A stretch of DNA of 23,281 nt from a bacterium. GTDB taxonomy: Bacteria > Chloroflexota > Dormibacteria > UBA8260 > Bog-877. The translations under genes were made by a program, and so were the position numbers. The stretch is taken from contig JAJYWT010000113.1 of assembly GCA_021791345.1 (NCBI GenBank), positions 1 to 23,281 of the forward strand, written 5' to 3'. The first letter of the stretch is position 1. Each line of letters starts with the position of its first letter. Below the pieces are notes generated by a model that was not told the origin of the DNA, did no database searches, and was given only the letters and a program-made list of their open reading frames with translations. Below, one piece after another: positions 2,549-20,908 of this stretch.

Positions 2549-3338
2549 GGGCGCTCCAGACGTACGCCGCCACAGGGAGCGGCAGGGCCACCAGCAGCAG
2601 CAGCAGCGCGAACGGGAGCGCCGATTCCAGGCCGGTCTCCTGCAACGTGGTCCAGATCTGCAGGGGCAACCCGAATGGGTGGTACGCGATGATCAGGACC
2701 GCCCCGAAGGCACCCATCGCCCGGGCCCAGGTCACCGCCAGGCTGGAGGCCAGCCCCGGCGCCGCCAGGGGCAGGGTCACCCGTCGCAGGGTTCGGGAAG
2801 GGCGGTCTCCCAGCAGGCTTGCGGCTCGCTCCAGGTCCGGGTCCACGGCCGCGAAGGCGGCCTCCGCACCCAGCACGTAGTAGGGAACCGCCTCGTAGAT
2901 CTCGGCGACCACCAGGGCGAAGAAGGTGTCCGCCGCGGTCAGGTGTACCCCGGCCAGCACGTGCCCGATCGGGGTTGCCGGCCCGACCATGAACACCAGC
3001 AGCAGCCCGATCACCAGCGGAGGCGTGAGCAGGGGCAGCAGCAGACCCGCCTCCCAGACCCGCCCCCAGGGCAGACGATCGCGCGCGAGCATGTAGGCCA
3101 AAGGGGTGCCCAGCAGCAGGATGGCCCCGACCGCCAGGGCCGACGCCTCCACGGAGACCTCCAGTGGCACCAGGGCGCCGGGCTGGCCCAGGGCCTCCAG
3201 CAAGCCTCCCCAGGAGAGGTGCGCGGCCAGAGTTATCACCGGCCCCAGAACCGCCACCCACACGACCCCGGCCCCCAGGACCGCCAGGGCGGTGCTCGGC
3301 CCCGCGAGGCGGATCTTGCGGGACGGAGCCGCGATCAC
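2529..3338 (-). CDS. Molybdate/tungstate ABC transporter permease
   Basis: A 269-residue integral membrane protein of the binding-protein-dependent transport (MetI-like) family, forming the transmembrane channel with the neighbouring ATPase. Hydrophobic helices alternate with short loops throughout. The EAA coupling loop is visible as EAAFAAVDPDLERAASLLGD, continuing to the conserved LP in VTLPLAAPG, and the ModB/WtpB-like WARAMGAFGAVLI follows. The start is a GTG at 3338 that forms a 4-bp GTGA overlap with the stop of the binding-protein gene, indicating translational coupling. The C-terminus ends on Arg/Lys-rich residues facing the cytoplasm. Family assignment is firm; substrate follows from the adjacent WtpA-like protein. 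Confidence 0.93.
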   Translation of the reverse strand: MIAAPSRKIRLAGPSTALAVLGAGVVWVAVLGPVITLAAHLSWGGLLEALGQPGALVPLEVSVEASALAVGAILLLGTPLAYMLARDRLPWGRVWEAGLLLPLLTPPLVIGLLLVFMVGPATPIGHVLAGVHLTAADTFFALVVAEIYEAVPYYVLGAEAAFAAVDPDLERAASLLGDRPSRTLRRVTLPLAAPGLASSLAVTWARAMGAFGAVLIIAYHPFGLPLQIWTTLQETGLESALPFALLLLLVALPLPVAAYVWSARARRRL

Positions 3339-4300
3339 CTGGCCAGGCGGCGAATGCCGGCGGGAGCGGCGGCCGAGTCCCCCAGCAGCTGGACCGGCGG
3401 GGTCGCGTATCCCTCCCGCGCCAGGATCTGCCGCCCGCGGTGACCCGCCAGGAACTCGATGAAGGCTGTCGCCGCTGGGGAACCGCGTCCCAACATGGTC
3501 GCCTCGATGTCGAGCAGCGAGCCGTGCACCACCTCGTTCGCACCAATCCGCAGGTGAGCCGCCCGGTAGTCGGCCAGGTCCTTCGGGTCCCCGAAGTTGA
3601 TGGCGGCCGGGAGGGAGATGAACGGCAGATGGAGTTGGAGGGCCTCCGACTCGAAGGCGCTGGCCGCGTCCAGCTGGCCCGCCTGAAGCTGCGCCTCCAA
3701 CGAGGTCTCGGGATACAGCTGCGCGCCAGGGTCACTCCCACCAAGGTCCTGCGTCGCCACGGCCGGGGACAGATGGTAGAGCTTGACCGCCAGCCCCACC
3801 ATCATCGCGAAGGCCTGCCCCTGAGGATCCGTCGCCGGGTCGGTCCGGCCGAGCCTAAAGCCCGGACGCGCCATCAGGGTGAAGAGGTCGCTTAGCGGCA
3901 GCTGGCGCTCGCGGATCCGGTTCAGGCTCACCGAGTAGGGGCCATGAGCGTAGTACGCCACCACCAGCGGGCTGGATGCGATGCGCACAGCCCAGCGCGT
4001 GTACCTGGGCTCGAGCAGCGCCAGCGGGCCGGGCCCGACCGAGATGAAGACGTTGGGGTGGATCTCCCCGGAGATGACCTCCTGAGCGAGGCCCAAACTG
4101 CCGCCGCCGCGCCCCTGGTATCCGTATCCGTCGTCCCGGGTGAACTCGGGCCCCAGGTACTTGGACATCACCAGCTGCAGTGATCCGGCGAAGGCGACAT
4201 CAACACTGCCGCTACGCACGGACGCGCCGGCGGTCGAGCCGCACCCAGCCAGCGCAGAGGCCAGGATCGTCGACGCCACCACCACCATCCATTTCCCCAC
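3335..4300 (-). CDS. WtpA/ModA-type tungstate/molybdate-binding lipoprotein
   Basis: The extracytoplasmic substrate-binding component, 321 residues. A signal peptide with Lys3 and a hydrophobic core ends in the lipobox LAGC (Cys20), so the mature protein is probably lipid-anchored. Diagnostic blocks are FAGSL (37-41), GGSLGLAQEVISGE (67-80), NVFISVGP (83-90) and GRTDPATDPQG (151-161). The last is characteristic of the WtpA/archaeal-type class that binds WO4 or MoO4 octahedrally. Asp158 and Glu217 (in SAFESEA) are candidate protein ligands by comparison with that class. The start is a GTG at 4300; an in-frame ATG at 4288 has GGGGA 5 nt upstream but would lose the only positive charge of the signal peptide. 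It is first in the operon. Tungstate versus molybdate is unresolved. Confidence 0.9.
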   Translation of the reverse strand: MGKWMVVVASTILASALAGCGSTAGASVRSGSVDVAFAGSLQLVMSKYLGPEFTRDDGYGYQGRGGGSLGLAQEVISGEIHPNVFISVGPGPLALLEPRYTRWAVRIASSPLVVAYYAHGPYSVSLNRIRERQLPLSDLFTLMARPGFRLGRTDPATDPQGQAFAMMVGLAVKLYHLSPAVATQDLGGSDPGAQLYPETSLEAQLQAGQLDAASAFESEALQLHLPFISLPAAINFGDPKDLADYRAAHLRIGANEVVHGSLLDIEATMLGRGSPAATAFIEFLAGHRGRQILAREGYATPPVQLLGDSAAAPAGIRRLAR

Positions 4301-5616: not shown

Positions 5617-7059
5617 ATGTGCGGCGCGGAAGGAGATCTGCAAGCCGTGGTCAGGCGGTCCCGCTTCGAATACGACCTCGTGGTGATCGGCCTCGGGTCG
5701 GCGGGGATGGTGGCGACTGACTTCGCCGCCAGGCTGGGGCTCAAAACTGCCGCGGTGGAGAGTTCTCGAGTTGGCGGAGACTGCTTGTGGACCGGCTGCG
5801 TCCCCAGCAAGAGCCTGCTGGCGGCGGCCGGCACCGCTCACACCATCCGCCGTGCCCATCGATTCGGCATCACCGCCACCGAGCCGGTGCTGGATCTGCC
5901 CACGATCTGGAATCGCATCGGCCAGGTCCAGGCCGAGGTCGCGGCGACCGATGACGATCCCGAGCGACTTCGGCAGACCGGCGCCGAAATCATCGTCGGC
6001 ACGCCGGCTCGGCTGGTGGGGCCGCACTCGGTCTCGGTGGGCGACAGGATCTTGAAAACTCGCTTCATTCTCGTCTGCACCGGCAGCCGGCCGGCGGTGC
6101 CGCCGCTTGCCGGCCTGGAGGACGTCGGGTTCATCACCAGCGAGACCTTCTTCGAGCTGAAGAGGGTGCCGCGGAGCCTCATCTTCATCGGCGGAGGGCC
6201 GATCTCTCTCGAGCTGGCCCAGGGCATGAGACGCTTGGGCGCAGAGGTCACGGTCCTGGAGGCGGCCGAACAGATCTTGACCCGCGAGGAGCCCGAGCTG
6301 GCGACCGCCCTGACGTCGCTGCTTCGACGGGAAGGCGTCGTGATCGAGACCGGAGTCCAGATCGATGCCGTCAGCGCCGATGGTGGCGCCAAGACGGTCA
6401 CCGGCCTGATCGCGGGCCAGAAGCGCAGATGGCAAGCCCAGGACATCTTCGTTGGCACCGGGCGGCAACCCAATGTCGATGGTCTGGGGCTGGAGGCACC
6501 GGGGGTCAGGGTGGGCCGGGCCGGGATCGCGGTGGATCGCGGCCTGCGCACCTCGGTGCGGAGTATCTACGCCTGCGGTGACGTGACCGGGGGCTATCTC
6601 TTCACCCACTCCGCCGGCCATGAGGCGGTGCAGGCCGTGAGGGGCATGTTCTTCCCTGGCCAAGGCAGGGCCCCTGAGCTGGTGCCGTGGTGCACCTTCA
6701 CCGACCCCCAGCTGGCGCATGCCGGACTCACAGCGGCCGAGGCGACCGCGACCATGCGCAGGGTCGCGGTCTGGCGCTCCCATCTGGAGAACTCAGATCG
6801 CGCCCGGGCCGACTCCGCAGGTGGCGGAGAGGTGGTCCTGGTCACCGCCGCACGCAGGCTGGTGGGGGCCCACATCCTCGCTCCCTGCGCCGGGGAGATG
6901 ATTCATGAGCTGGCCCTGGCGATCTCCCAGCGGCTGAAGATCGACGCCATCTACGGCCTGGTCCATGTGTATCCGACCTACTCGACGTCGGTCGGCACGG
7001 CAGCAGCCGAGGCCGGGCTCGAACAGGCGCGGCGCCTGCGCTGGCTGATTCGGCGCTAG
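5617..7059 (+). CDS. Pyridine nucleotide-disulfide oxidoreductase (MerA/dihydrolipoamide-dehydrogenase-like)
   Basis: A 480-residue class I FAD flavoprotein. The FAD site is VVIGLGSAG (22-30), the redox-active disulfide is Cys56-LWTG-Cys61 in GGDCLWTGCVPSK, the NAD(P) site is IGGGPISLEL (191-200), and a second FAD contact is YACGDVTGG (318-326). The C-terminal dimerisation domain lacks the lipoamide-dehydrogenase His-Glu dyad: the family pattern HPTxxE appears as YPTYST, with Tyr452 and Thr457 at those positions. There is no N-terminal HMA domain and no C-terminal Cys pair, so it is not a classical mercuric reductase either. The true substrate is unknown. The ATG at 5617 has no ribosome site; GTG at 5647 follows GGAAGGAG (5628-5635) by 11 nt and may be the real start, removing ten residues before the FAD fold. 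Confidence 0.9.
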   Translation: MCGAEGDLQAVVRRSRFEYDLVVIGLGSAGMVATDFAARLGLKTAAVESSRVGGDCLWTGCVPSKSLLAAAGTAHTIRRAHRFGITATEPVLDLPTIWNRIGQVQAEVAATDDDPERLRQTGAEIIVGTPARLVGPHSVSVGDRILKTRFILVCTGSRPAVPPLAGLEDVGFITSETFFELKRVPRSLIFIGGGPISLELAQGMRRLGAEVTVLEAAEQILTREEPELATALTSLLRREGVVIETGVQIDAVSADGGAKTVTGLIAGQKRRWQAQDIFVGTGRQPNVDGLGLEAPGVRVGRAGIAVDRGLRTSVRSIYACGDVTGGYLFTHSAGHEAVQAVRGMFFPGQGRAPELVPWCTFTDPQLAHAGLTAAEATATMRRVAVWRSHLENSDRARADSAGGGEVVLVTAARRLVGAHILAPCAGEMIHELALAISQRLKIDAIYGLVHVYPTYSTSVGTAAAEAGLEQARRLRWLIRR

Positions 7060-8830: not shown

Positions 8831-10372
8831 TCAGGGCCGACGCTCCCGGCGGAGGTCGCGCAGCAGCGCCCGGGCGGCGAGCCGGCCGGAGGTGCCCAGA
8901 ATGCCGCCACTGGGGCTGGTCCCGGCGCCGCAGATGTAGAGCCCGCCGACTCCGGTGCGGTGCGAGGCGAGCTGGGGGGTGGGGCGCATCGCCCCCAGCT
9001 GGTCCAGGCTGAGATCCAGCTGCATCGGGTGCGCTCCCGGCCAGAGGCCGCCCAGCGACATCTCCTCAGGGGTCCTGAAGGCGATGCCCTTGATGCTGGC
9101 CCGCAGCCCCGGCGCGCGCGCCTCCAGCTCCGTGAGGGCCCGCTCGACGAACTCCTCGCGGCGGGCGTCCCAGCCTCCGCGAACTCGAAATGGGGTGGCT
9201 GGGCAGGCCAGGTAGATGGTGTGGTTCTCTGGCGGCGCCAGCGACGAGTCGATCGCCGAGGTGGTGAAGCAGTAGAGCGGCAGGGGGTCCGGCAGCTCCT
9301 CGTCCTCGGCTCTGACCCAGGCTCGCTCCAGGCTGCACAGGTCGTCGACCAGGCTCTGCAGTCCGTTCCAATCCCCTGGCCGGGAGCCGGGGTAGGCGGG
9401 CAGCGCCTCGGTCGCCAGATGGATCACCCCCTGGACCACGTTGCCGCTCCTGGTCGCCGCGAGATCGGCGGCGGTCCTGCCGTCGAGAGGAGGGGCGAGC
9501 AGCTGCAGCAGGGCGGTCCTGGGGTCGATCGCCGTGACCACCAGATCGGCCGCAAGCCGTTCGCCGGAGGTCAGCTCCACCGCCTCCACCCGGTCCCGGT
9601 TGGTCCGGATCATGGTCACCTCCGCGGCGCACCGCACCTCCCCGCCGAGGCGCTCGAGCCTGGTGGTCAGCGCGCTCACCAACCCCTGGGAGCCGCCGCG
9701 GGGGTGCCACTGCCCGAAGTGGTGGTAGGCCGACTGCCAGAAGCCGAACAGCGCTCCCCCGGGGATGCTCGGACCGACGGAACCGTGGGCCGCGAAGGCC
9801 GCCAGGGGTCCCCTGGTGAGATCCGAGAACAGCCGCCTCCGCAGCAGGGCACCGTAACCGCCCGCCACATCCCGCACCAGCTCCTTGCGCCCCGAGGAGC
9901 CCAGTTGGAGCGCTCCCCCCAAAACCCGGGGAAGCGTCCTGCCCGAGCGCTCGCCTCGAATCGAGGGCAGCACCCCGCGCATCACCATGTCCCCGGCGGC
10001 GATGAACCGGCGGTAGGGCTCGACGTCGCCGGGGCTCACCTCCGCGATCGACTCCAGGGTCTGTTCCAAGGAGCGATGGAAGCGCACCCGGCGCCCGTCC
10101 GCAAAGATGCCCACGGCGAAGGGGTCCATTTCCAGATACTCGAGCCCCACCGCACTGAGCTCGAGATCCTCCGGGATCGTGGTCATATTGATCAGGTTGT
10201 GGGCGACCGCATGGAGGTCGAAGCGGTAGCCGGGCACCAGCTCCTCGGTGCGGCAACCGCCGCCCGGGGTACCCTGGGCCTCCAGGACGGTCACCTCCAG
10301 CCCGGCACGGGCGAGGTAGCAGGCGGCTACCAGGCCGTTGTGCCCGGCTCCCACGACCACCACCCGGGTCAT
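8831..10372 (-). CDS. CrtI-like FAD-dependent oxidoreductase (phytoene-desaturase-related)
   Basis: A 513-residue flavoprotein of the phytoene desaturase/amine-oxidase superfamily, resembling the PYROXD2-like branch rather than a classical carotenoid CrtI. The dinucleotide-binding motif is VVVGAGHNGLVAACYLARAG (5-24), followed by VLEA. The family block GGGCRTEEL comes next. The C-terminal FAD motif is GLYICGAGTSPSGGI (about 475-489). The central substrate-binding region includes HPRGGSQGLVSAL. These enzymes desaturate, saturate or isomerise isoprenoid or fatty chains; the substrate here is unknown. It lies about 93 bp downstream of the methyltransferase gene on the same strand and may belong to the same transcript, which would fit a lipid-modifying role. 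A weak GGGG ribosome site precedes the ATG. Confidence 0.9.
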   Translation of the reverse strand: MTRVVVVGAGHNGLVAACYLARAGLEVTVLEAQGTPGGGCRTEELVPGYRFDLHAVAHNLINMTTIPEDLELSAVGLEYLEMDPFAVGIFADGRRVRFHRSLEQTLESIAEVSPGDVEPYRRFIAAGDMVMRGVLPSIRGERSGRTLPRVLGGALQLGSSGRKELVRDVAGGYGALLRRRLFSDLTRGPLAAFAAHGSVGPSIPGGALFGFWQSAYHHFGQWHPRGGSQGLVSALTTRLERLGGEVRCAAEVTMIRTNRDRVEAVELTSGERLAADLVVTAIDPRTALLQLLAPPLDGRTAADLAATRSGNVVQGVIHLATEALPAYPGSRPGDWNGLQSLVDDLCSLERAWVRAEDEELPDPLPLYCFTTSAIDSSLAPPENHTIYLACPATPFRVRGGWDARREEFVERALTELEARAPGLRASIKGIAFRTPEEMSLGGLWPGAHPMQLDLSLDQLGAMRPTPQLASHRTGVGGLYICGAGTSPSGGILGTSGRLAARALLRDLRRERRP

Positions 10373-10465: not shown

Positions 10466-11266
10466 TCAGGGCTTGGCCGCCGTCAGGATGGAGTAGCCGA
10501 GATGACCCTGGCGCACCTCCCGCAGCGCACTGGCGGCCATGTCCCGCGCGGTCTTCCAGTCCCCGCCGGGCCACTCGACCTTCTTGAGGGCGACCATCAG
10601 CGAGGCCGCCATCAGCTTGAGGCGGATCCCCTCCACCATCTCCACCAGCGCCTGGTCGTGGTTCTCGACCACCACCGAGCGCAGCCCGGCCTGGGTGAGG
10701 TGCGTACGGTAGGCGTCGACCGGCCCGGCGTCACCGACGCAGGCGACCCAGGCCAGAATCCCCTGGAGCTCGGGCGGCAGATCGCCGTTGCGGGTGAGGT
10801 CGCTGATCCCCACCATGCCGCCCTGGCGCAGCACCCTGGTCATCTCCAGGGCTGCGGTGGGCTTGTCCGGAAAGGTGCAGAAGGCGCACTCGCAGACGAC
10901 CGCGTCGAAGCTGGCCGGCGGGAAGGGCAGACCCTCGGCGTCCCCGATCTCAAACGAGACCAGGTGGGCGACCCCAGCGGCCTCCGCGGCGGCGGTCGCC
11001 CGCTCCACGTTGGCCGAGCTGAGGTCGACCCCGATGACCCGGCAGGAGAACCGCTGGGCCAGATGGATGGCGGACGTCCCCAGCCCGGCCGCCACGTCCA
11101 GCACCCGGTGCTGCGGTCCGAGCTCCAGCAGCCGACCCAGCCGTTCGGTGAGCTCCACCCCGCCGGGGTGGAAGCTCTCTCCAACCAGCAGCTTGGCGAG
11201 GTCATTGGAGTAGAGGTCGACGCAGCAGCTCTTGACCTCCTGCGGCGAGACGGGAACCTGACTCAC
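10466..11266 (-). CDS. Class I SAM-dependent methyltransferase coupled to the radical SAM gene
   Basis: A 266-residue Rossmann-fold methyltransferase. Motif I is VLDVAAGLGT (55-64), the acidic residue after beta-2 is Asp81 in VIGVDLS, and motif II is GDAEGLPF (108-115). Unusual cysteines occur near the N-terminus (Cys14-Cys15) and in VCECAFCTFPDK (Cys125, Cys127, Cys130). That Cys-rich block recurs in a bacterial methyltransferase group often auto-annotated as arsenite-methyltransferase-like, but the real substrate is not known. The GTG start at 11266 forms a GTGA overlap with the radical SAM stop and has GAGGAGGT 6 nt upstream. The frame stays open further upstream, but the extra sequence is only antiphase coding of the radical SAM gene. 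Context suggests a lipid or cofactor substrate. Confidence 0.9.
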   Translation of the reverse strand: MSQVPVSPQEVKSCCVDLYSNDLAKLLVGESFHPGGVELTERLGRLLELGPQHRVLDVAAGLGTSAIHLAQRFSCRVIGVDLSSANVERATAAAEAAGVAHLVSFEIGDAEGLPFPPASFDAVVCECAFCTFPDKPTAALEMTRVLRQGGMVGISDLTRNGDLPPELQGILAWVACVGDAGPVDAYRTHLTQAGLRSVVVENHDQALVEMVEGIRLKLMAASLMVALKKVEWPGGDWKTARDMAASALREVRQGHLGYSILTAAKP

Positions 11267-12831
11267 GCCGTCACCTCCTCGCTCGGGGCCGCCATCGGCA
11301 GCGGCGCGACCCGCGCCTCGGCGGTGGCAGCAGGCAGGTCGAACTTGAAGGTTATCGGCTCGGGCACGAACGGACGCTTCTCCCGCTTGGCGCGCTGGCG
11401 CCCCCGCTGACGGGCGGTCAGCTGGGCCCGCGCCTGCTCCCGGTAGCCGACTGTGTTGTACGAGCAGAAGGGGATCTGATGGCCATCGGGCAGGAGGAAC
11501 TCCTTGCAGCACTTCATCAGGTTCTTCTGGTTGAAGGTCCAGGGATCCATGAAATCCTGCAGCATCACCATGAACATCTTCTGACCGATCTCGCCCAGAT
11601 CCATCCCCGCCAGCCCACAGGACTCACAGGAGAGCGCGAACTCGGCCGCCGCCTTGTCACCTCCGGGCACCGCCGACGAGGACCAGAGCCCCTCCAATGC
11701 CTGCTTGATCTCCACATCCAGCTCGGGGAGCGCCCGGTTGGTCAGGTAGTCGAGGTAGTCCTCGACGTTCAGCAGCCGGGTCAGGGGGGTGACGATATCC
11801 CCCTCCACGAAGGCATAGGTGACCGAGTTGCAGGTGGGAAAGCAGCATGGCACCGGTACGAAGTCGCTGACCTTGAACAGGCCGGCGGTCTGCTCCTCCA
11901 CCCCCAGAAGGACATCGGGGATGGTCATCCGCTCCTTGGGGTCGTGCTCTCCGTGCCGGCCGGCGTGGAAGGCGGGCTGGAAGTTGATCCCCCGAACCGC
12001 CTTGTGCTTGAGGGCGAACTTGATGATCTCCCCCACCTCGTGGTCGTTGACCCCCTTCTCCACGGCCGGCACCAGCACCACCCCCAGCCCCGCCTCGGCC
12101 AGGCGGTCGAGCGCTCGCAGCTTCTCCTCCAGAATCTTCGGCTCACCCCGGATCACCTCGTAGGTGTGCTCCTCGAAGCCGTCGAACTGAAAGTAGATGG
12201 AGATCTTGAGCTCGGCCAAATCGGCCACGAACTGGTCGTCCCGAGCGATCCTCTTGCCGTTGGTGTTGAGCATCACGTGGCGGATGTCGCGCGCCTTGGC
12301 GGCCCGCAGCATCTCCACGATCTGGGGATGGATGCTGGGCTCACCCCCGGAGAACTGAACCACCTCCGGCCTGCCCTCGGTCCGCACCAGGTTGTCCAGG
12401 ATCTCCTCCACCTCCTCCAGGGTCAGGTTGAACCCCGGTCCGGCGTTGGCGAAGCAGAGCGGACAGTCCATGTTGCAGGCCGAGTTGACCTCGATGATCC
12501 CCAGGCAGGTGTGCTGCTGGTGGTCCGGGCAGAGCCCGCAGTCGTAGGGACAGCCCCGCTCGATCTCATGGTTGTGCTGCAGCGGGATGGTGCCCGGCTT
12601 GTTGTAGGCGGCGTTGCGGGCGTAGGCCCTGGCGTCGGCGTAGATCAACGCCTCCACCTCCCCGTGGTCGGGGCAGCGCTTGCGCATGTAGACCTTGTCG
12701 TCCCGGAGCAGGATCTTGGCGTCGATCACCCGCCGGCACTGCGGGCAGATGCTCCGGGTCAGCTCGTAGAAGATGTAGTCGGCGTCCTGCTTGACCCGAC
12801 TGGTGCTGGTGGCGGCGAGGATCTCGGTCAT
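11263..12831 (-). CDS. Radical SAM protein of the tetraether-lipid-synthase (Tes / MJ0619-like) family
   Basis: A 522-residue protein. The N-terminus has a rubredoxin/zinc-like site (Cys29-x2-Cys32 ... Cys53-PDHG). A first CX3CX2C lies at Cys94/98/101 and a second, in NSACNMDCPLCF, at Cys119/123/126; the second is the expected radical SAM cluster site. QFSGGEPSIHP (159-169) is the SAM-binding GGE region, and LNTNGKRIA follows. The C-terminus is Cys-rich: CCFPTC (329-334), CESC (402-405), MKCC (439-442) and DGHQIPFCSYN. This architecture matches the archaeal Tes/MJ0619 group, which joins lipid chains or methylates pterin, and its bacterial homologues. ATG at 12831 overlaps the CDP-alcohol transferase stop (ATGA) with GGGAG upstream. 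The exact reaction is inferred; a methylase role remains possible. Confidence 0.85.
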   Translation of the reverse strand: MTEILAATSTSRVKQDADYIFYELTRSICPQCRRVIDAKILLRDDKVYMRKRCPDHGEVEALIYADARAYARNAAYNKPGTIPLQHNHEIERGCPYDCGLCPDHQQHTCLGIIEVNSACNMDCPLCFANAGPGFNLTLEEVEEILDNLVRTEGRPEVVQFSGGEPSIHPQIVEMLRAAKARDIRHVMLNTNGKRIARDDQFVADLAELKISIYFQFDGFEEHTYEVIRGEPKILEEKLRALDRLAEAGLGVVLVPAVEKGVNDHEVGEIIKFALKHKAVRGINFQPAFHAGRHGEHDPKERMTIPDVLLGVEEQTAGLFKVSDFVPVPCCFPTCNSVTYAFVEGDIVTPLTRLLNVEDYLDYLTNRALPELDVEIKQALEGLWSSSAVPGGDKAAAEFALSCESCGLAGMDLGEIGQKMFMVMLQDFMDPWTFNQKNLMKCCKEFLLPDGHQIPFCSYNTVGYREQARAQLTARQRGRQRAKREKRPFVPEPITFKFDLPAATAEARVAPLPMAAPSEEVTA

Positions 12832-13556
12832 ATCACTCCCATGCTGGTTGCAGCCGATATTCGTGGTGATGAACTCAATCGGGGACCGCGCTGGGGGCGG
12901 CGCAGCGCCCGCGCCGCCACCAGGAGCTGGCAGCCCACCGAGAGCTGCCGGAACCACTGGGGCCGGGGGTAGTCCAGGGTCCGGCCCCGCTTGAAGTAGG
13001 CGACCGTGATCACGGCGGCGGGCAGCGTCCAGAGGCCGAGAGCCAAAGCCCGCAGCCATCGGGACGGCTCGTGGTGGAAGAGGAACCAGCTCCAGAACAC
13101 GCTGTCGGCGAGGCCGTCGGCGTAGGCGCCGAACGCCGTCACCCGGCTGCGCCGGGCGATCTGGCCGTCCAGGTAGTCGGTGGCCAGAGCCAGCGGGGCG
13201 GCCAGCCGGCTATGGGGCAGGAGCGCGGGCAGGTTCGCCCGCAGCAGGCTGAGGCGGTTGGCCCATCCCAGGAAGAGGTCCTGCTCGCCCAGCAGGCCGA
13301 GGTGGGTGATCCCCATGAGCCAGGTGAGCAGAGCCGCCCGGCGGTGGCCGGCCAACCCCAATCCGACCGCCAGGCCGCCGAGCTCCAGGGACGCGCGGGG
13401 GTGCCGGACCGCCTGCTCTCCCGAGCGCACCAGGCTGCGCCCGAGGAACCGGGCCCAGCCTCCCGCCGACCACCGGCTCTGAGCCAGCTCCAGAAGCAGC
13501 TGGTCCGTGAAGGCACGGCTCGACTCCGGGCGAACGATCGGGGGGCGCTGGGACAT
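12828..13556 (-). CDS. CDP-alcohol phosphatidyltransferase family membrane protein
   Basis: A 242-residue membrane protein, first gene of the minus-strand operon. The family signature is readable: Asp127-x2-Asp130-Gly131-x2-Ala134-Arg135, then Gly143-x3-Asp147-x3-Asp151. These are the metal-binding Asp residues that swap CMP for an alcohol in phospholipid head-group synthesis. The spacing between Arg135 and Gly143 is seven residues instead of the usual eight. The preceding ANRLSLLRANLPALL (99-113) matches the family's first amphipathic segment. About 95 extra N-terminal residues with hydrophobic stretches precede the core. The ATG at 13556 diverges from glcD across 117 bp. It probably makes a phospholipid head group for the lipid acted on by the next gene; head-group identity cannot be read from sequence. 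Confidence 0.87.
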   Translation of the reverse strand: MSQRPPIVRPESSRAFTDQLLLELAQSRWSAGGWARFLGRSLVRSGEQAVRHPRASLELGGLAVGLGLAGHRRAALLTWLMGITHLGLLGEQDLFLGWANRLSLLRANLPALLPHSRLAAPLALATDYLDGQIARRSRVTAFGAYADGLADSVFWSWFLFHHEPSRWLRALALGLWTLPAAVITVAYFKRGRTLDYPRPQWFRQLSVGCQLLVAARALRRPQRGPRLSSSPRISAATSMGVI

Positions 13557-13658: not shown

Positions 13659-13687
13659 GCATAGGATGCAGGGGTGGCATCCTATGC
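13659..13687. promoter_or_regulatory. Perfect 11-bp inverted repeat overlapping the glcD -10 element and start codon
   Basis: GCATAGGATGC (13659-13669) and GCATCCTATGC (13677-13687) are exact reverse complements separated by AGGGGTG. The left arm contains the TAGGAT -10 hexamer and the spacer contains the GTG start. A dimeric regulator bound here would block transcription initiation; alternatively the right arm lies in coding sequence and is constrained only by chance. GntR or LysR control of glycolate genes is common, but no such regulator is encoded next to it. Confidence 0.6.
13662..13667 (+). promoter_or_regulatory. -10 element TAGGAT of a probable leaderless glcD promoter
   Basis: TAGGAT ends 6 nt before the GTG at 13674, the same geometry as at 4515 and 23226. 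No Shine-Dalgarno precedes the GTG and no clear -35 is visible. Confidence 0.6.
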
Positions 13688-15152
13688 GCCGCCCAACGTT
13701 GGGGCGCTGGACCAGCTGGTCACAGCGCTCGGCGCGATCGTGGGTTCAGCCTGGGTGCTGACCCGGGCCGATGACCTGCGCACCTACGAGTGCGACGGCC
13801 TGACCGGCTGGCGCCAGCCGCCCCTGGCGGTGGCGCTGCCGGCCACGACTCAGGAGGTAGCCCGGATCGTCCGCCTCTGCCACGAGCTCGCGATCCCCTT
13901 TGTCCCCAGGGGCAGCGGCACCGGCCTCTCCGGCGGAGCGCTCCCCCATCCCGAAGGGATCGTGATCGGCTTGAGCCGGATGCGCTCCATTCTTGAGGTG
14001 GACGTGGACAACGAGCGGGTAGTGGTCCAGCCCGGCGTCCTCAATCTCGACGTCACCCGGGCGGTGGAGGACAAGGGCTATTTCTACGCACCCGACCCCT
14101 CCAGCCAGCGGGTCTGCTCCATCGGCGGCAATGTCGCCGAGAACTCCGGAGGCGCCCACTGCCTGAAGTACGGGTTCACCACCAACCACGTCCTGGCGGC
14201 GACCCTGGTCCTCTCCGACGGGCGCATCGCGCATCTGGGCTCGCCCTGTGTGGACGCGCCCGGGCTGGATCTTCTGGGGGTGGTGATCGGCAGCGAGGGC
14301 ACCCTGGGGATCGTGACCGAGGTCACCCTCAGACTGCTGCCCAAGCCGGAATGGGTGGAGACGCTGCTGGCGGCGTTCCCCTCCACAGATGCGGCCGGCC
14401 AGGCGGTGGCCGCCATCATCGCCCACGGGGTGGTCCCCGCCGCCATGGAGATGATGGACCGGGCCACCATCGCGGCCGTGGAGAGCACCATGCACGCCGG
14501 CTACCCCGATTGCGGCGCCGCGCTATTGGTGGAGCTCGACGGCCCTGCGGCGGACTGCCGGTCGCTCTTTCAGGCGGTGGCGGATCTCTGCCGCGCGGCG
14601 GGGGCCACCGAGGTGCGGGTGGCCCGGGACGAGGCGGAGCGGGCGCTGCTCTGGAAGGGACGTAGAGGCGCCTTCTCCGCCATGGGACGGGTAAGCCCCG
14701 ACTACTACGTCCAGGACGGCGTGGTGCCCCGCTCGCACCTGGCCGAGGTGCTGGCCGGGATCCGGGATCTGGAGCAGCGCCATGGACTGCGCGTCGCCAA
14801 TGTCTTCCACGCCGGGGACGGCAACCTCCATCCCCTCATCCTCTATGACCGCCGTGCACCCGGGGGACCGGAGCGGGCTCGAGAGCTCGCCGAGGACATC
14901 CTCGGCCTCTGCCTTGACGCCGGCGGCTCGCTGACCGGTGAACACGGGGTGGGACGCGACAAGATGTGCCAGATGCCCCGGCTGTTCTCGGTCGCCGATC
15001 AGGAGGTCATGGTGCGAGTCAGGTCGGCCTTCGACCCTGACCATCTGTCCAACCCTGACAAGGTGCTGCCCACCCCGCGCCTCTGCGGTGAGCACCCGGG
15101 CATCTACCGGCCGCACCCGGCCGAGCTCGCCGGTCTGGCGGAGCGGGTGTGA
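13674..15152 (+). CDS. glcD: Glycolate oxidase subunit GlcD (FAD-linked oxidase)
   Basis: A 492-residue FAD-linked oxidase, the catalytic subunit that oxidises glycolate to glyoxylate and feeds electrons to the membrane quinone pool through GlcF. The PCMH-type FAD domain (~47-225) shows PRGSGTGLSGGALPHPEG (78-95) and SIGGNVAENSGGAHCLKYG (149-167). The C-terminal FAD-oxidase domain carries FHAGDGNLHP (about 377-386) and GEHGVGRDK (about 421-429), both family hallmarks. The GTG start sits inside a perfect inverted repeat and follows a TAGGAT box by 6 nt. The stop overlaps the glcE start (GTGA). A D-lactate dehydrogenase role cannot be excluded on sequence alone, but the glcD-E-F order argues for glycolate or a related 2-hydroxyacid. 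Confidence 0.93.
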   Translation: MASYAPPNVGALDQLVTALGAIVGSAWVLTRADDLRTYECDGLTGWRQPPLAVALPATTQEVARIVRLCHELAIPFVPRGSGTGLSGGALPHPEGIVIGLSRMRSILEVDVDNERVVVQPGVLNLDVTRAVEDKGYFYAPDPSSQRVCSIGGNVAENSGGAHCLKYGFTTNHVLAATLVLSDGRIAHLGSPCVDAPGLDLLGVVIGSEGTLGIVTEVTLRLLPKPEWVETLLAAFPSTDAAGQAVAAIIAHGVVPAAMEMMDRATIAAVESTMHAGYPDCGAALLVELDGPAADCRSLFQAVADLCRAAGATEVRVARDEAERALLWKGRRGAFSAMGRVSPDYYVQDGVVPRSHLAEVLAGIRDLEQRHGLRVANVFHAGDGNLHPLILYDRRAPGGPERARELAEDILGLCLDAGGSLTGEHGVGRDKMCQMPRLFSVADQEVMVRVRSAFDPDHLSNPDKVLPTPRLCGEHPGIYRPHPAELAGLAERV

Positions 15153-16423
15153 GAGGACCGCGGGCGAGCGAGCTGGCCCAGCTGGTGGGAGGAGGCCTTG
15201 AGGTCGTCGAGGCGGCGCCGGGGTCCGGCCTGCCACCTGGGCTGCCGATCGCGCAACCCCAAAGTGAGGAGCAGGTGTCAGAGCTGCTGCGGTTGGCTTC
15301 CCAGCGGCGCTGGCGGGTTGACCTCCGCGGTGGGGGAACGCAGCCGCAGTGGGGGCCGCTGGGCGAGCCTGGCGATCTGGTCCTGGCCACCACGGCACTG
15401 AACCAGCTCGTGGAGCACGAGCCGGGGGACCTCATCTGCGTCGCCCAGGCGGGAATGCGTCTCAGCGACCTTCAGGAGCGGATCTCCAGGACCCCCGGCT
15501 ACCGGCAGCGGCTGATGCTCGACCCTCCCGGCGGCGATGGCGCGACCCTGGGGGGACTGGTCGCCACCCGCGCCTCTGGCCCCTTGCGCACCCGCTACGG
15601 CCATATGCGCGATCTCCTGCTGGGAGCCCGCTTCGTGCTCGCCGACGGGACCATCGCCAAGACCGGCGGCAAGGTGGTGAAGAACGTGGCGGGATACGAT
15701 CTCGACAAACTCCTGGTGGGGTCCCTGGGCACCCTGGCGGTGGTGGTGCAGGTGGCGCTGCGGCTCCACCCCCAGGCGGAGGCGCGAGCGTCGGTACTGC
15801 TGGAGGACGTTGACGCCGGGACGGCGGCTCAGTTCCTGGTGTCCCTCCGGACGGCCCCGGTCGTCCCCAGCATCGTCGAGGTGATCTGGCCCGACGGAGT
15901 GGTGCTGGTCCAGATCGACAGCACCGCCGAGGGGGCGGCCCGCCAGGCGGAGGTGGCGGCGGGCCTCAACCCCCGGGCACGGATCCTCGACCTGGCCGAG
16001 GCGAGCTACTGGGAGGAGCTGCTGCGCAGCCGACCGTGGGAACGCCCCGGAGCGGTGCTCGGGGTCTCGGTGCCGCTCACCGCGACCCGGGCGCTGCTGG
16101 AGTTCGTGGAGGACCAGGGGGCGCTGGGGGAGGCGGTCGCTCTCTCCCTGCGGGGCACGATCGGCGCCGGCGAGTTGAGGATCTCCTCCCAGGTCGCCAC
16201 GCTGGAGCTGGTCCGGGAGACGCTCGAGGGCTGGGGAGGGCACACGGAGATCCATCGGGCCCCGGATGAACTGCGCGGGCTGGGATCGTCGCCTCGCGAC
16301 CCGGTCGCCCAGGACCTCATCCGCCGGGTGAAGCGGGCGCTGGATCCCGATGACATCCTCGAACCCGGTCGGATCTCACGCACCGAGCCAACCTCGGTCG
16401 CGGTGGTCGGCACCCGTGGCTGA
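15149..16423 (+). CDS. glcE: Glycolate oxidase subunit GlcE (FAD-binding subunit)
   Basis: A 424-residue protein with a PCMH-type FAD-binding domain similar to the N-terminal part of GlcD. Readable blocks are PGDLICVAQAGMRLSDLQ, LGGLVATRASGPLRTRYGHM (131-150) and KTGGKVVKNVAGYDLDKLL (171-189), the last strongly diagnostic of GlcE. In the family GlcE is required for activity together with GlcD and GlcF. The GTG start at 15149 overlaps the glcD stop by 4 bp. At 424 residues it is longer than the roughly 350-residue E. coli protein; the extra length lies in the C-terminal half. Operon order and motifs make the assignment secure. Confidence 0.92.
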   Translation: MRGPRASELAQLVGGGLEVVEAAPGSGLPPGLPIAQPQSEEQVSELLRLASQRRWRVDLRGGGTQPQWGPLGEPGDLVLATTALNQLVEHEPGDLICVAQAGMRLSDLQERISRTPGYRQRLMLDPPGGDGATLGGLVATRASGPLRTRYGHMRDLLLGARFVLADGTIAKTGGKVVKNVAGYDLDKLLVGSLGTLAVVVQVALRLHPQAEARASVLLEDVDAGTAAQFLVSLRTAPVVPSIVEVIWPDGVVLVQIDSTAEGAARQAEVAAGLNPRARILDLAEASYWEELLRSRPWERPGAVLGVSVPLTATRALLEFVEDQGALGEAVALSLRGTIGAGELRISSQVATLELVRETLEGWGGHTEIHRAPDELRGLGSSPRDPVAQDLIRRVKRALDPDDILEPGRISRTEPTSVAVVGTRG

Positions 16424-17768
16424 GTCCCTCCCCCCGGCCCCCGAGACGGGTCCGGTCGTGGTCCCGGCCTTCGACGACCACGACCCTCCCGATCCCGCGC
16501 TGCTCTCCGACTGCGTGCATTGCGGATTCTGCCTGCCCGCCTGTCCCACGTATGCGCTGTGGGGGGAGGAGATGGATTCACCCCGGGGCCGGATCCTCTT
16601 GATGGACCTGGCGCGCGGCGGAGAACGCCCGATGGGACCGGAGATGGTTGCGCACTGGGATTCCTGCCTGGGATGTCTCGCCTGTGTGCCCGCCTGCCCA
16701 TCGGGGGTCGCCTACGATCGACTCCTGGAGCAGACCCGCCAGCAGGTGGAGCGGCGCTACCCCCGTCGCCGGCGGGAGCGGCTCTGGCGCTGGGCGCTGT
16801 TCGCAGTCCTCCCCCATCCCACCCGCCTGCGCCTGCTCAACTCCCTGCTGTGGGCGGCGGATCGCCTCAGCGGTCCCAATCTCGACCCACGAGCACTGGC
16901 GCCCACCCGTGAGCTCGCGGCCGCGGCCCGGCTGGCGCCCCGGGGGAGCCTCAGAAGCTCCTGGGCCAGGCTGCCCCGGCCCCAGCGGCCCACCCACGGA
17001 CGTCCTGCCCGGCTTCGGGTGGCGGTCCTGGCCGGGTGCGTCCAGAGGGTTGTGGAGGCCCAGACCAACGTGGCCACCGCCGAGGTGTTGGCCGCCTACG
17101 GGGCCGAGGTCAGGATCCCACCCCAGCAGGGCTGCTGCGGCGCGCTCGAGCTCCACGCCGGGCGCCAGGAGTCGGCCCTGCACCGGGCGCGGGCGTTCGT
17201 CGCCACCTTCGAGGACCCCGCCGTGGACCGGATCGCCGTCAATGCCGCGGGCTGCGGCGCCATGCTCCGCGAGCTGGGGCGGCTGCTGGAGGATGACCAC
17301 GAGTGGGCGGCGCGCGCCCGGGCGGTTGCCGCCAAGGTCAGGGATGTGACCGAAATCCTCGACGAGCTCGGCCCCCCCGACGACCTGCACCCACTGCCGC
17401 TGCGGGTCGCCTACCACGATGCCTGCCATCTCGCTCACGCCCAGGGCATCAGGGCCGCGCCCCGCCGGGTGCTGCAGGCGATCCCTGAGCTGCGGCTGCT
17501 GGAGATACCGGAGGGTGACCTCTGCTGCGGCAGCGCCGGGGTGTACAACCTGACCCAGCCCGCGGCGGCCCATGATCTGGGGCTGCGCAAGGCAGCCAAC
17601 GTCACCGCCGTTGCTCCCGATTGCGTGGTGGCGGGCAACCCGGGGTGCCTGCTGCAGATTCGGGCCGCGCTGGCGGAGCAGGGCAGCGCGGTACCCGCGC
17701 TGCATCCCGTCGAGCTGGTTTCCGCCTCTCTTCGGGGCCGCGGCGCGGCCGTGACCGGCGGCGGTTGA
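16416..17768 (+). CDS. glcF: Glycolate oxidase iron-sulfur subunit GlcF
   Basis: A 450-residue protein with two ferredoxin-type 4Fe-4S motifs near the N-terminus, CVHCGFCLPACP (Cys33/36/39/43) and CLGCLACVPACP (Cys84/87/90/94), followed by two CCG domains (about PQQGCCGALELHAG and DLCCGSAGVYNLTQP). It passes electrons from GlcD/GlcE to membrane quinone, the role CCG proteins play in heterodisulfide reductase and succinate:quinone systems. I chose the GTG at 16416, which overlaps the glcE stop by 8 bp; an ATG at 16350 in the same frame would bury the start 74 bp inside glcE and add 22 unconserved residues. The last gene of the glc operon; it converges on the lipid kinase gene. Confidence 0.92.
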   Translation: MAESLPPAPETGPVVVPAFDDHDPPDPALLSDCVHCGFCLPACPTYALWGEEMDSPRGRILLMDLARGGERPMGPEMVAHWDSCLGCLACVPACPSGVAYDRLLEQTRQQVERRYPRRRRERLWRWALFAVLPHPTRLRLLNSLLWAADRLSGPNLDPRALAPTRELAAAARLAPRGSLRSSWARLPRPQRPTHGRPARLRVAVLAGCVQRVVEAQTNVATAEVLAAYGAEVRIPPQQGCCGALELHAGRQESALHRARAFVATFEDPAVDRIAVNAAGCGAMLRELGRLLEDDHEWAARARAVAAKVRDVTEILDELGPPDDLHPLPLRVAYHDACHLAHAQGIRAAPRRVLQAIPELRLLEIPEGDLCCGSAGVYNLTQPAAAHDLGLRKAANVTAVAPDCVVAGNPGCLLQIRAALAEQGSAVPALHPVELVSASLRGRGAAVTGGG

Positions 17769-17924: not shown

Positions 17925-18809
17925 TCAGGCCGCAGCCACGCACACCAGGAGCGCCTTCGGCAGCACCCTCGCCTCCATCACCGAGGCGGGCGCCAGGGGC
18001 TCGCCGTCGGCCTCGCGCGGGCGGGGTAGGTCGGTGACTATCTGGATCTCTCGGCCCACCAGCGACTCCAGCCCCATGCCGCCGGGATGTCGCACACCCA
18101 CCCTCCACCCGATCCTGGCCAGGTCCAGGGGACGCCGGGAGGCAATCAGGATCACGTCTAGCTGGCCATCGTCGGCGGCGGCGGCCGGCAGTAGCGTCAG
18201 CCCCCCGGGCAGGGTGCCCACGTTGGCAACCAGGACAGACCGGGCGCGGCGCAGCAGCGGAGCCCCGCCGTCCACGCTGAGCTCGACCGTGAAGCCCGCT
18301 TCGGGCAGGTGGCGCAAGACCGACGGGACGTAGGCCAACCAGCCCAGTGCGCGCTTGGCCAGCCGGGGGGCGTCGGCCAGCATCTGAGCGTCCAGGCCCA
18401 TCCCCGCCGCGACGCAGAAGCGGACCCCATCGACCTCGCCGAGGTCGATGGGGCGACGGGACCCCGTGATCGCCGTCCGAATCGCCGCGATCGGGTCCAG
18501 CGGCAGGCCCAGGTTGCGCGCCAGCAGGTTGCCGCTGCCCAGGGGCACCACCGCCAGGGCGACATCGGGGTGCATCGCCAGGGCGCGCACGGCGCTGGCG
18601 ACCGTCCCATCGCCGCCGCACGCGAAGAGGACCTCGACGCCCTCCCGGAGCACCCGTTGGAGTCCCTCCCGCTCGCCCCCGGCGGGATCGGTCTCGACGA
18701 AGACGGGAGCCGCCCAGCCCGCGTCCCACAGCAACTCCTGGAGGCGCGAGCGCAGTCCGAGGTGCTGAGGGACCCGCGCCGGGTTGATCAGAACCGCACT
18801 GGCGCTCAC
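17925..18809 (-). CDS. Diacylglycerol kinase family lipid kinase (DagK/YegS-like)
   Basis: A 294-residue soluble or membrane-peripheral lipid kinase that transfers phosphate from a nucleotide to diacylglycerol or a related lipid alcohol. The catalytic-domain signature is GGDGTV (65-70), followed by the second nucleotide-binding block VVPLGSGNLLARNLGLP (87-103). The C-terminal beta-sandwich domain (about 130-290) includes LPGGLTLLP and DDGQLDVILI, typical of the YegS/BmrU group. GTG at 18809 starts 42 bp after the pterin dehydratase stop and only a GGGA abutting the start is visible, so coupling to the upstream gene is likely. Substrate lipid is unknown; bacterial members often act on diacylglycerol, undecaprenol or sphingoid bases. 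Confidence 0.9.
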   Translation of the reverse strand: MSASAVLINPARVPQHLGLRSRLQELLWDAGWAAPVFVETDPAGGEREGLQRVLREGVEVLFACGGDGTVASAVRALAMHPDVALAVVPLGSGNLLARNLGLPLDPIAAIRTAITGSRRPIDLGEVDGVRFCVAAGMGLDAQMLADAPRLAKRALGWLAYVPSVLRHLPEAGFTVELSVDGGAPLLRRARSVLVANVGTLPGGLTLLPAAAADDGQLDVILIASRRPLDLARIGWRVGVRHPGGMGLESLVGREIQIVTDLPRPREADGEPLAPASVMEARVLPKALLVCVAAA

Positions 18810-18851: not shown

Positions 18852-19202
18852 CTAGGCCCGGCCACCCGAGGAGGGCTCCAGCAGTCGATCAATCTTGGCG
18901 GCCATGATGAAGTCGTTGCGGGTCACTCCGCCCGCGGCGTGAGTGGTCAACTCCACCTCCAGGTACCCCCAGCCCAACCGCAGCTCCGGGTGGTGGCCCT
19001 CCCGCTCCGCCAGGAGCGCGATCCTGGTCGCCAGGCCGAATGCCTCGGCGAAGTCACTGGTGCGCTGGTGGCGCCGCAGGCCAGGTCCCGACCTGATCCA
19101 GGCGGGCGCCACCTGATCCATCAGCTGGGCGATATCGGCCTCGGGCAGGGGGGGCGTGCCGGGCGCGCAGGCCTGGCAACGCTCCCTGACCAGTCCGCTC
19201 AC
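18852..19202 (-). CDS. 4a-hydroxytetrahydrobiopterin dehydratase (pterin carbinolamine dehydratase)
   Basis: A 116-residue protein that dehydrates 4a-carbinolamine pterins so that the reduced pterin can be recycled. It matches the catalytic signature exactly: EGHHP with His70-His71-Pro72, Trp78, His88 after nine residues, and Asp97 in TRNDF. The N-terminal CQACAPGTPPL resembles the lead-in seen in many bacterial members. Start is a GTG at 19202 forming a GTGA overlap with the DUF6909-like gene. No aromatic amino-acid hydroxylase is visible in the window. COG2154 proteins without such a partner have been linked to molybdopterin metabolism, which is noteworthy given the Mo/W transporter 15 kb away, though this link is inference. 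Confidence 0.92.
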   Translation of the reverse strand: MSGLVRERCQACAPGTPPLPEADIAQLMDQVAPAWIRSGPGLRRHQRTSDFAEAFGLATRIALLAEREGHHPELRLGWGYLEVELTTHAAGGVTRNDFIMAAKIDRLLEPSSGGRA

Positions 19203-20908
19203 TGATCGTTCCGGGGAGCCCGCACGGCCCCCGCCCGCTGCAGGATCCGGGCCGCGATCGCCAGCGCCCCGGCGTAGGTTCCCTCCATCCCCTCGAACTG
19301 CAGCCCCCGGGCACCGAGGGTGCGGGCCTGGGTGTAGGGGGTGTCGGACGCGTAGTGGATCAGACCCACCTCCATCGCGGGGCGGGTCAGATCCACCTGG
19401 CTGCCGGTGGGGTAGCGGGAGGAGTCGCCGGCCTCGTAGACGGCTCCGAGGTACGGCCCTGCCTCCATCTCCACCACCGTGTAGGCGTCGCGATAGTAGA
19501 AGTCCAGATACGCGCGGTTCTGCAGGAAGGTGCTGCGCACCGAGACCGCGCGCTGGCGGTCCAGCACCGACCGCGAGGTCACAAACGGCGCGACCTCGGC
19601 GAAGCTGAAGCAGTTGTCCAGCCAGTAGGTGTTCCCGCTGTGCTCGTCGTGGATCACATCCGAGATCATGACGTCCCCGACATCGGCGTTCAAGGTGGCG
19701 GCCTTGCCCAGGATGTAGACCCCGGCCACCCGGTCGGTCGCCTCCATCACCTGGCGCAGGATGTGGTATGCACCCAGCCCCAGCGGGTACTGGATGTTGA
19801 TGATCACCTCGGGAGCTGCGGCCAGCGCCTGGTGGTCCACCTCGCCGAGCCTCGGATCCAGCTGGTCAGGGCGGAGTTGATCCAGCACCATGACCTGGGC
19901 GGCGACGTCGGTCCCGGATCGCGCCTCGATGTGGTGGATTCCCTCCTGACTCTCCTCCTTGGTGCGGGCGGCCCGGGCCCTGGGATGGGCGTCGAACCAC
20001 AGTCGGGCCGCGTAGTAGAGGAAGTTCTCCTCGGAGATCTGCTCGCTCCGCTGGCGCCGGCGCAGCAGCGCTTGGAGCTCGGGCTGCTGCGACTCCTCGG
20101 CCCAGCGCATCACCTCCGACTGGCGTCGGCGCGCGACCCCCGAGAGCAGGTTGACCAGACAGTGCGCGTTGCTGCTGACGAAGTGGACCGGTCGGTCGCG
20201 CAGCCCCTCCCGGGTCAGCACCTCCCCGATCGGCCCCCACCACTCCCTCGTCGCCCGCGCAAAGCCCACCTGGGAACCCCCGAGCAGCCGGACCCGCAGG
20301 TCCATCGCCCGGGTGGAGACGGTCTCCAGGAATCCGCCCAGCCCACCTCCGAACAGCGCCTCGAGCCGGGCCCAGTCGTCGGGCCCAATGCCCAGGCGGC
20401 CGCGGGCGTCGGCTCCCGCAGGCTCAGACCCGGAGAGCAGACGATGAGCCTTGTTCCACTCGATCTGGAGAGCCACCAGCGTCGGCACCAGGTCGTCGAG
20501 GTCGGAGCTGCTGGCCAGGGCGACCGCCAGTGTGCCCGATCCCTGGTCCCACCACCAGCGCCGCCGCCGACCCGGAGCGGTCACCGGCTCCCAGCCACTG
20601 CCGGCTCGAAGCAGCTGATCCGGTGACTGGCCCAGCAGCACCCGGCGCAACCAGGGGGTGACCGGCGGCAGCCGGTGCAGGGAATACAGCAAAGCGCCCC
20701 CATCCACGACCTTGGCCTCGCCCAGCGGATGGAGCGAGGAGCGCATCCCCAGATGAACGCGTTCCAGAGCCCGCAGCGGCACCTCGCCAGAGGACCGCAG
20801 CAACGTCTGGAAGGTCCGAGTGTAGAGCTCGACCTCGTCGCGGCTCGGGGGAACAGCGACGGGCGCAGATCCTCCCCAGGCCGGCAACCCTTCCCCCCCC
20901 GGGCTCAC
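19199..20908 (-). CDS. DUF6909-like protein with C-terminal nucleoside-phosphorylase-like domain
   Basis: A 569-residue protein I recognise only loosely, as an uncharacterised actinobacterial/Chloroflexota family (DUF6909-like). The N-terminal half (to ~320) is mostly helical with no known motif, although DLDDLVPTLVALQIEWNKAH is distinctive. The C-terminal half looks like a nucleoside phosphorylase/MTAN fold: VIINIQYPLGLGAY (368-381), YILGKAATLNADVGDVMIS (398-416) and VVEMEAGPYLGAVYE (478-492). The VEMEA string equals the ribose-binding Met-Glu site of 5'-methylthioadenosine/nucleoside phosphorylases. It overlaps the glucan phosphorylase gene by 4 bp (GTGA) upstream and the pterin dehydratase gene downstream. 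Substrate unknown; a phosphorolytic or lectin-like role on a sugar or nucleoside is a guess. Confidence 0.75.
   Translation of the reverse strand: MSPGGEGLPAWGGSAPVAVPPSRDEVELYTRTFQTLLRSSGEVPLRALERVHLGMRSSLHPLGEAKVVDGGALLYSLHRLPPVTPWLRRVLLGQSPDQLLRAGSGWEPVTAPGRRRRWWWDQGSGTLAVALASSSDLDDLVPTLVALQIEWNKAHRLLSGSEPAGADARGRLGIGPDDWARLEALFGGGLGGFLETVSTRAMDLRVRLLGGSQVGFARATREWWGPIGEVLTREGLRDRPVHFVSSNAHCLVNLLSGVARRRQSEVMRWAEESQQPELQALLRRRQRSEQISEENFLYYAARLWFDAHPRARAARTKEESQEGIHHIEARSGTDVAAQVMVLDQLRPDQLDPRLGEVDHQALAAAPEVIINIQYPLGLGAYHILRQVMEATDRVAGVYILGKAATLNADVGDVMISDVIHDEHSGNTYWLDNCFSFAEVAPFVTSRSVLDRQRAVSVRSTFLQNRAYLDFYYRDAYTVVEMEAGPYLGAVYEAGDSSRYPTGSQVDLTRPAMEVGLIHYASDTPYTQARTLGARGLQFEGMEGTYAGALAIAARILQRAGAVRAPRNDQ

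Follow-up and report, generated by a model that had tools for sequence, protein, structure and literature searches.

The window analysed here is a 23,281-nucleotide stretch of DNA (contig JAJYWT010000113.1, assembly GCA_021791345.1) from a bacterium of the Chloroflexota lineage Dormibacteria. Its reverse strand carries three overlapping genes, listed in transcription order, in which the middle gene encodes a radical S-adenosylmethionine (SAM) protein of the tetraether synthase (Tes) superfamily, from a subfamily that we call class A.

12828..13556, minus strand: CDP-alcohol phosphotransferase, 242 amino acids, first gene
11263..12831, minus strand: class A Tes-superfamily radical SAM protein, 522 amino acids, second gene
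10466..11266, minus strand: class I SAM methyltransferase, 266 amino acids, third gene

A preliminary description of this DNA had read the block as a candidate pathway for membrane-spanning or modified lipids. The analysis reported here points to a modified lipid, or a compound of a similar kind, as the probable product, rather than membrane-spanning lipids. The stop codon of the CDP-alcohol transferase gene (12828-12830) and the ATG of the radical SAM gene (12829-12831) overlap as ATGA, and the stop codon of the radical SAM gene (11263-11265) and the GTG of the methyltransferase gene (11264-11266) as GTGA, so the coupling of the three genes that had been described holds. The Shine-Dalgarno sites inside the preceding genes were also seen by eye, as AGGAGG seven bases 5' of the GTG and a shorter GGAG four bases 5' of the ATG. 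The strict pattern AGGAGG-N4-9-ATG had no match in the window, with 1.76 expected by chance.

Of 7999 candidates scored in a protein search, 6576 reached E 1e-10 or better. The nearest organism-named relative came from an Acidimicrobiales metagenome-assembled genome (MAG), at 88%. From a genome scan the best 80 loci of 117 relatives were kept; counts out of 81 include the window. These loci were labeled Chloroflexota (many of them Ktedonobacteria), Acidobacteria, Bradyrhizobium and Afipia, with further, unverified MAG labels such as Eremiobacterota, Chthonomonadaceae and Gammaproteobacteria. A methyltransferase relative followed the radical SAM gene on the same strand in 75 of the 80 loci, and in three of the other five no more than 18 bases of contig remained. 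The gap between the two genes was −4 to +9 bp in 44 of the 68 loci measured.

The pairing was also counted in whole genomes. The phylum to which G001 belongs, taken to be Chloroflexota from members like Dictyobacter, was represented by 201 genomes; 17 of these had a class A radical SAM gene (at least 59% identity) and 14 had the methyltransferase. All 14 were among the 17, with the genes adjacent in 13 (hypergeometric P about 5e-19); in G340 and G236, which lacked the methyltransferase, the locus is cut or near a contig end. In the Bradyrhizobium order (249 genomes) the same two genomes carried both genes, adjacent to each other, and 17 further genomes of that order with radical SAM relatives at 34-42% gave no methyltransferase at E 1e-30. 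The three genes were adjacent also in L001 and L009. The proposed three-gene block is thus found again, but its conserved core is only the radical SAM-methyltransferase pair, which is near-obligate and is retained in several groups of soil bacteria. The arrangement is beyond chance, as the pair and, to some extent, the transferase were found again in related genomes. Class A is a new subfamily of a known kind of enzyme with a near-obligate partner, and is plausibly lipid-modifying.

A profile scan of the radical SAM protein found PF23545 (zinc ribbon) and PF04055. The protein has a rubredoxin-type site (C29/C32/C53/H56) and, as had been noted earlier, a double CX3CX2C, consisting of C94/C98/C101 and the radical SAM motif C119/C123/C126, together with a Cys-rich tail of eight residues (Cys 329, 330, 334, 402, 405, 441, 442 and 456). 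Cysteines of the rubredoxin site, N-terminal cluster and radical SAM cluster were each kept in 79-80 of 80 class A rows. The His83 equivalent was kept in all 80, whereas the His36 equivalent varied (H45 C32 G2 D1). In class A, the Cys and His ligands are therefore retained at three of the four metal sites described for Tes, with H56 of the window as His or Cys. The C-terminal domain is homologous to that of Tes, though diverged, and keeps the three cysteines that we assign to the Tes C-terminal cluster. The predicted structure matches the whole-protein fold of Tes (7tol/7tom) over its full length. The earlier description as Tes-like is borne out for this predicted fold, but not for membership: the window protein scored 357.5 bits with the Tes model NCBIfam NF045702, below the curated cut-off of 450, and no protein in 25 class A genomes exceeded that cut-off. 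With the TrsS model NCBIfam NF045646 it scored 346.5 bits (cut-off 490).

To place class A, 68 proteins were aligned for a tree: 14 archaeal Tes, 24 class A (of 81 available rows), 8 class B, 10 class C, 6 class D, 4 TrsS and 2 others (group X). The classes other than A were collected by profile search, B and C from Acidobacteriota genomes. The tree was midpoint-rooted for drawing; class C did not form one clade, the two X rows were long-branched and eight rows had odd composition. A branch with support 100/98 separated Tes, B, C and TrsS from A, D and X, and Tes, B and C were grouped with support 100/98, leaving class A outside. No placement beside pterin or other non-lipid methylases was seen in this tree, which contained none of those proteins. 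Compared with Tes (GDGT-MAS, MJ0619), class A has replaced Met439 by Gln, Tyr459 by Phe, Ile or Val, and Ser271 by Phe. Met439 was kept in Tes (14/14), B (8/8), C (10/10), TrsS (4/4) and partly in D (4/6), whereas class A had Gln in 24/24 aligned rows (Q76 T4 in 80 rows). Tyr459 was kept in Tes, B, C and one X row and was F14 I7 V3 in the 24 class A rows (F50 I27 V3 in 80). Beyond the Tes set, class A has extra invariant cysteines at 109, 329, 330, 402, 405 and 442, although some Tes rows share those at 330 and 442.

These data bear on the idea of the preliminary description that the enzyme is a true Tes, or resembles Mss, and makes membrane-spanning lipids, with methyl branches added by the methyltransferase and a head group by the CDP-alcohol transferase. 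The predicted full-length fold and the conserved ligands are in line with it, and the available text of PMC8941075 retrieved 456 bacterial Tes homologues and suggested a role in the synthesis of branched glycerol dialkyl glycerol tetraethers (GDGTs). However, class A lies outside the Tes clade, Met439 (a labile ligand of the fourth site) and Tyr459 are replaced in every class A row of the alignment, and separate Acidobacteriota class B and C proteins keep both residues. In addition, the class A protein was the single Tes-model match in 16 of the 18 class A genomes without an acidobacterial label. According to the part of PMC9433317 that was available, Met439 and Tyr459 are completely conserved across 1000 archaeal homologues. 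Tree position and residue changes together make Tes-type chain coupling unlikely for class A, and we regard the membrane-spanning lipid pathway as a whole as very improbable.

The class B proteins came from loci L082, L085-L087, L089, L115, L129 and L130 and the class C proteins from L095-L098, L100-L102, L105, L107, L109 and L157. L115 contains one class B and one class C protein inside the same 19 kb, and the L157 class C protein shares 45% identity with an archaeal Tes. Judged by their Met439 and Tyr459, the Acidobacteriota classes B and C look like better candidates for branched-GDGT synthases than class A.

On class A's own side of the main branch the neighboring genes suggest lipid work. 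Class D (loci L119, L123, L124, L126, L127, L158 and L159) is about 38-40% identical to the window protein. It differs from class A at C-terminal cluster positions (338 C3 S3, 455 S/T, 470 D) and in its neighbor, which in these Acidobacteriota is a paralogue of Lgt (PF01790) instead of a methyltransferase. Lgt was searched in 11 genomes: a second copy lay within 2.6 kb of the radical SAM gene in all eight with class D (G088, G141, G034, G076, G148, G119, G067 and G121; six are in the tree, and G067 and G121 were assigned by best match), but beside the radical SAM genes of none of the three without it (G051, G055 and G089). Class D and its Lgt paralogue form a candidate lipid-modifying pair in their own right. 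Inspection by eye placed group X in a fatty acid synthase-like cluster (L128:7100-12000), where tandem Tes-like radical SAM frames accompany acyl carrier protein-, ketosynthase-, FabZ- and short-chain dehydrogenase/reductase-like genes.

TrsS resembles class A in being a Tes-like radical SAM protein near a related methyltransferase and in sharing Cys 109, 329 (Cys or Sec in TrsS) and 442, but differs in its conserved Met439, separate branch and other neighbors. In L112 and L113, TrsS-type genes have an in-frame TGA at the position of class A Cys329, and a DVU_1556-like methyltransferase lies nearby. By eye, CoA-ligase-like and redox genes are found there as well, and this setting of a distant cousin fits a pathway for modification of a small molecule, cofactor or peptide, in which the lipid-type neighbors of class A would be incidental. 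The former naming of MJ0619 as a pterin methylase points the same way, though it is disputed in the accessible text of PMC9433317, as does a methyltransferase fold closest, within a near tie, to the natural-product methyltransferases AtmM and MitM. We consider such a pathway possible but doubtful: the characterised member of the radical SAM fold family acts on lipid chains, and the linkages of class D to Lgt and of class A to the CDP-alcohol transferase greatly exceed chance expectation.

The CDP-alcohol phosphotransferase assignment is supported by PF01066 (33.7 bits; cut-off 22), and the catalytic motif D..DG..AR...G...D...D is intact (DYLDGQIARRSRVTAFGAYADGLAD). The protein has an unusual N-terminal region that is common to its linked relatives. 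A profile search found the transferase near the pair in L001, L006, L007, L009, L010, L011, L013, L015, L020 and L021, including copies in L009 and Ktedonobacteria that a motif-pattern search had missed. It lies directly upstream in L001 and L009 and, in seven of the 10 loci, past the methyltransferase on the opposite strand. Four of 201 Chloroflexota genomes carried the close family of the window transferase, and three of the four had it at most 2 kb from the radical SAM gene. More broadly, PF01066 members lay no more than 4 kb from that gene in nine of 35 genomes, where about 0.16 were expected; all nine were already known from earlier steps of the analysis, and seven belong to the set of 25 class A genomes. 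Ktedonobacter racemifer has the pair (G003:C7:2505688-2508770) without an adjoining transferase, and carries a copy on another contig beside a MerA-model match. Because the linkage occurs in several arrangements, the functional tie appears real but lineage-limited. Together with the gene coupling and the full Tes fold, the recurring transferase makes the lipid link of the earlier proposal reasonable, while its Tes-like chain coupling is unsupported.

The best family for the methyltransferase was DVU_1556 (NCBIfam NF045667), with 131.9 bits against a cut-off of 155. Among 68 homologues, 64 to 68 carry each of seven cysteines (14, 15, 75, 125, 127, 130 and 176), the first two of which form an N-terminal CC. 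In an alignment with 12 ArsM proteins, C127 and C176 coincide with the cysteines of the ISNC and WxGC motifs; these ArsM proteins also have an N-terminal CC, at a different alignment position. The DVU_1556 model and the arsenite methyltransferase model, which gave the two best matches to the window protein, each matched all 34 methyltransferases scanned; so did six broader models, including the UbiE type. These similarities raise the possibility of a metalloid or metal module, in which As, Se or Hg is the target of an ArsM-like methyltransferase and receives an organic group from the radical SAM enzyme; together with the CDP-alcohol transferase such a module could make an arsenosugar phospholipid. 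It is the main rival explanation because radical SAM-methyltransferase pairs with the same logic are known, in the available part of PMC8552651, as ArsL/ArsM (arsinothricin) and ArsS/ArsM (arsenosugars). ArsM membership was rejected on score, with 91.5 bits for model NF008823, far below the cut-off of 263. The window protein further differs from ArsM by an extra ECAFC and C75 and by its Tes-superfamily partner, and 17 of the 25 class A genomes have a separate ArsM above the cut-off. The fold search for the methyltransferase gave near ties only; ArsM was not among the 50 matches listed, which is uninformative.

Redox proteins are frequent around the pair. The window itself contains one such gene:

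5617..7059, plus strand: MerA-like flavin adenine dinucleotide (FAD) disulfide oxidoreductase, PF07992 and PF02852, GGDCLWTGCVPSK, without a C-terminal CC

As this gene is encoded on the opposite strand, it is only a possible partner of the block. Across the loci, MerA-like FAD disulfide reductases (GGDCxWxGCVPSK) were the most frequent family near the pair (31 of 81 loci, window included), and L001 has transferase, radical SAM, methyltransferase and MerA-like genes in that order on a single strand. A VKOR-like protein is encoded directly upstream of the pair in 11 loci. With a broad net (E 1e-60 or better) a MerA-model match was found within 10 kb in 13 of 25 genomes, compared to 0.43 expected. 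True MerA with the C-terminal LSCCA occurred within 6 kb of the pair in four loci (L001:3593-4999, L017:14919-16619, L047 and L056), and within 20 kb in three of 25 genomes, with 0.11 expected. G024 has another true MerA over the cut-off about 14 kb from the pair. The true MerA genes favor the metalloid module, but their linkage is confined to a small minority, and no ars transporter or reductase was noticed by eye among the neighbor families recurring in at least three loci, for which no profile search was made. In view of both sides, metal or metalloid handling is a serious but rather doubtful explanation.

We tentatively favor, as quite possible, a core two-enzyme module in which the radical SAM enzyme functionalises a C-H position of a lipid-type substrate and couples a soft atom to it, the methyltransferase caps the product and accessory genes assist. 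A lipid is suggested by the CDP-alcohol transferase and class D/Lgt linkages, the group X cluster and the lipid chemistry of Tes. As described in the available text of PMC9433317, Tes binds lipid chains and holds the radical formed on its substrate in a C-S bond with the C-terminal cluster; a sulfur-bearing lipid was trapped. This S-C intermediate, along with the added C329, C330, C402, C405 and C442 of class A, led us to propose a functionalised, perhaps sulfur-bearing, lipid carbon. The class A enzyme would generate a carbon radical at an unactivated C-H position of its substrate, a lipid or a lipid derivative, and this radical would most likely be coupled to sulfur, or a similar soft atom, at the enlarged C-terminal Fe-S site and not to a second chain. 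The methyltransferase with its seven conserved cysteines would then methylate the product, probably at the soft atom; we infer this order of steps as well. In Chloroflexota and the lineage of the window, the CDP-alcohol phosphotransferase may supply or fix a phospho-alcohol part, and in many genomes a MerA-like reductase or VKOR-type protein may manage the thiol redox state. A thiol theme is suggested by these redox neighbors, by the extra invariant cysteines in both enzymes and by the alignment of C329 with the Cys/Sec of TrsS.

Several observations weigh against this proposal. Only 10 of the 80 loci have the CDP-alcohol transferase close to the pair, and no linked copy was found in any acidobacterial or alphaproteobacterial genome searched. 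The pairing has exceptions: L049 and L057 have the radical SAM gene and downstream room without a methyltransferase being found, and in Chloroflexota G295 is a real exception at the threshold used. The methyltransferase fold gives no clue to the substrate, as sugar, phosphoethanolamine and mycolic cyclopropane-lipid methyltransferases nearly tie with AtmM and MitM. The enzyme has some cysteines in common with arsenite methyltransferases, which, with the true MerA near four loci, fits metal or metalloid handling about as well. Finally, the Tes variants M439A and Y459F remain active in the available account of PMC9433317, so loss of these residues alone does not exclude chain coupling.

A more far-reaching version, which we consider unlikely, is an undescribed membrane lipid made by soil bacteria from several phyla: a Tes-like enzyme would place S (or As or Se) on an inert chain carbon by capturing the substrate radical at its auxiliary Fe-S cluster, and the Cys-rich methyltransferase would cap the atom. 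The S-C intermediate of Tes would then be the product. If C-S bond formation on an inert carbon is correct, the known chemistry of the Tes fold would be extended.

Bacterial Tes homologues have been noted before. In the portions available, Zeng et al. (PMC8941075) and Lloyd et al. (PMC9433317) suggested a role in branched GDGT formation as possible or left the function open, a Solibacter paper (PMC10087280) suggested its own Tes homologues for tetraether synthesis, and Sahonero-Canavesi et al. (PMC13274423) used Mss and Ger. Such homologues have thus been proposed as possible sources of the branched GDGTs used as palaeoclimate lipids (PMC8941075, PMC10087280). The present analysis sets apart from them a large bacterial subfamily, class A, which probably does not couple lipids, and suggests the Acidobacteriota classes B and C as better candidates. 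It also defines a tightly paired enzyme module for which cultured hosts exist and for which the searches of this analysis turned up no product. By title or abstract start, none of the openly licensed PubMed Central papers among the matches listed was about the radical SAM-methyltransferase pair, and NF045646 was met in one review, in the available text as the TrsS entry only.

Two further genes had been connected with the block in the preliminary description:

8831-10372, minus strand: CrtI-like oxidoreductase, 513 amino acids, starting 93 bp downstream of the methyltransferase gene
17925-18809: diacylglycerol kinase (DAGK)-type lipid kinase, elsewhere in the window

Both were found at the positions described. 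The CrtI-like oxidoreductase was rejected as a pathway member, since no relative at 1e-3 occurred in the flanks examined of the 80 loci, some of which were short. The remainder of the window contains a glycolate oxidase-like set that diverges from the block (13674-17768, plus strand; profiles identified GlcD and GlcF, and the middle gene was assigned by eye), molybdate-type ATP-binding cassette transporter-like genes with a regulator (553-4300, minus strand; by eye), and a DUF6909 protein (19199-20908, minus strand; PF21850, 613.8 bits) encoded beside an alpha-glucan phosphorylase-like gene recognised by eye.

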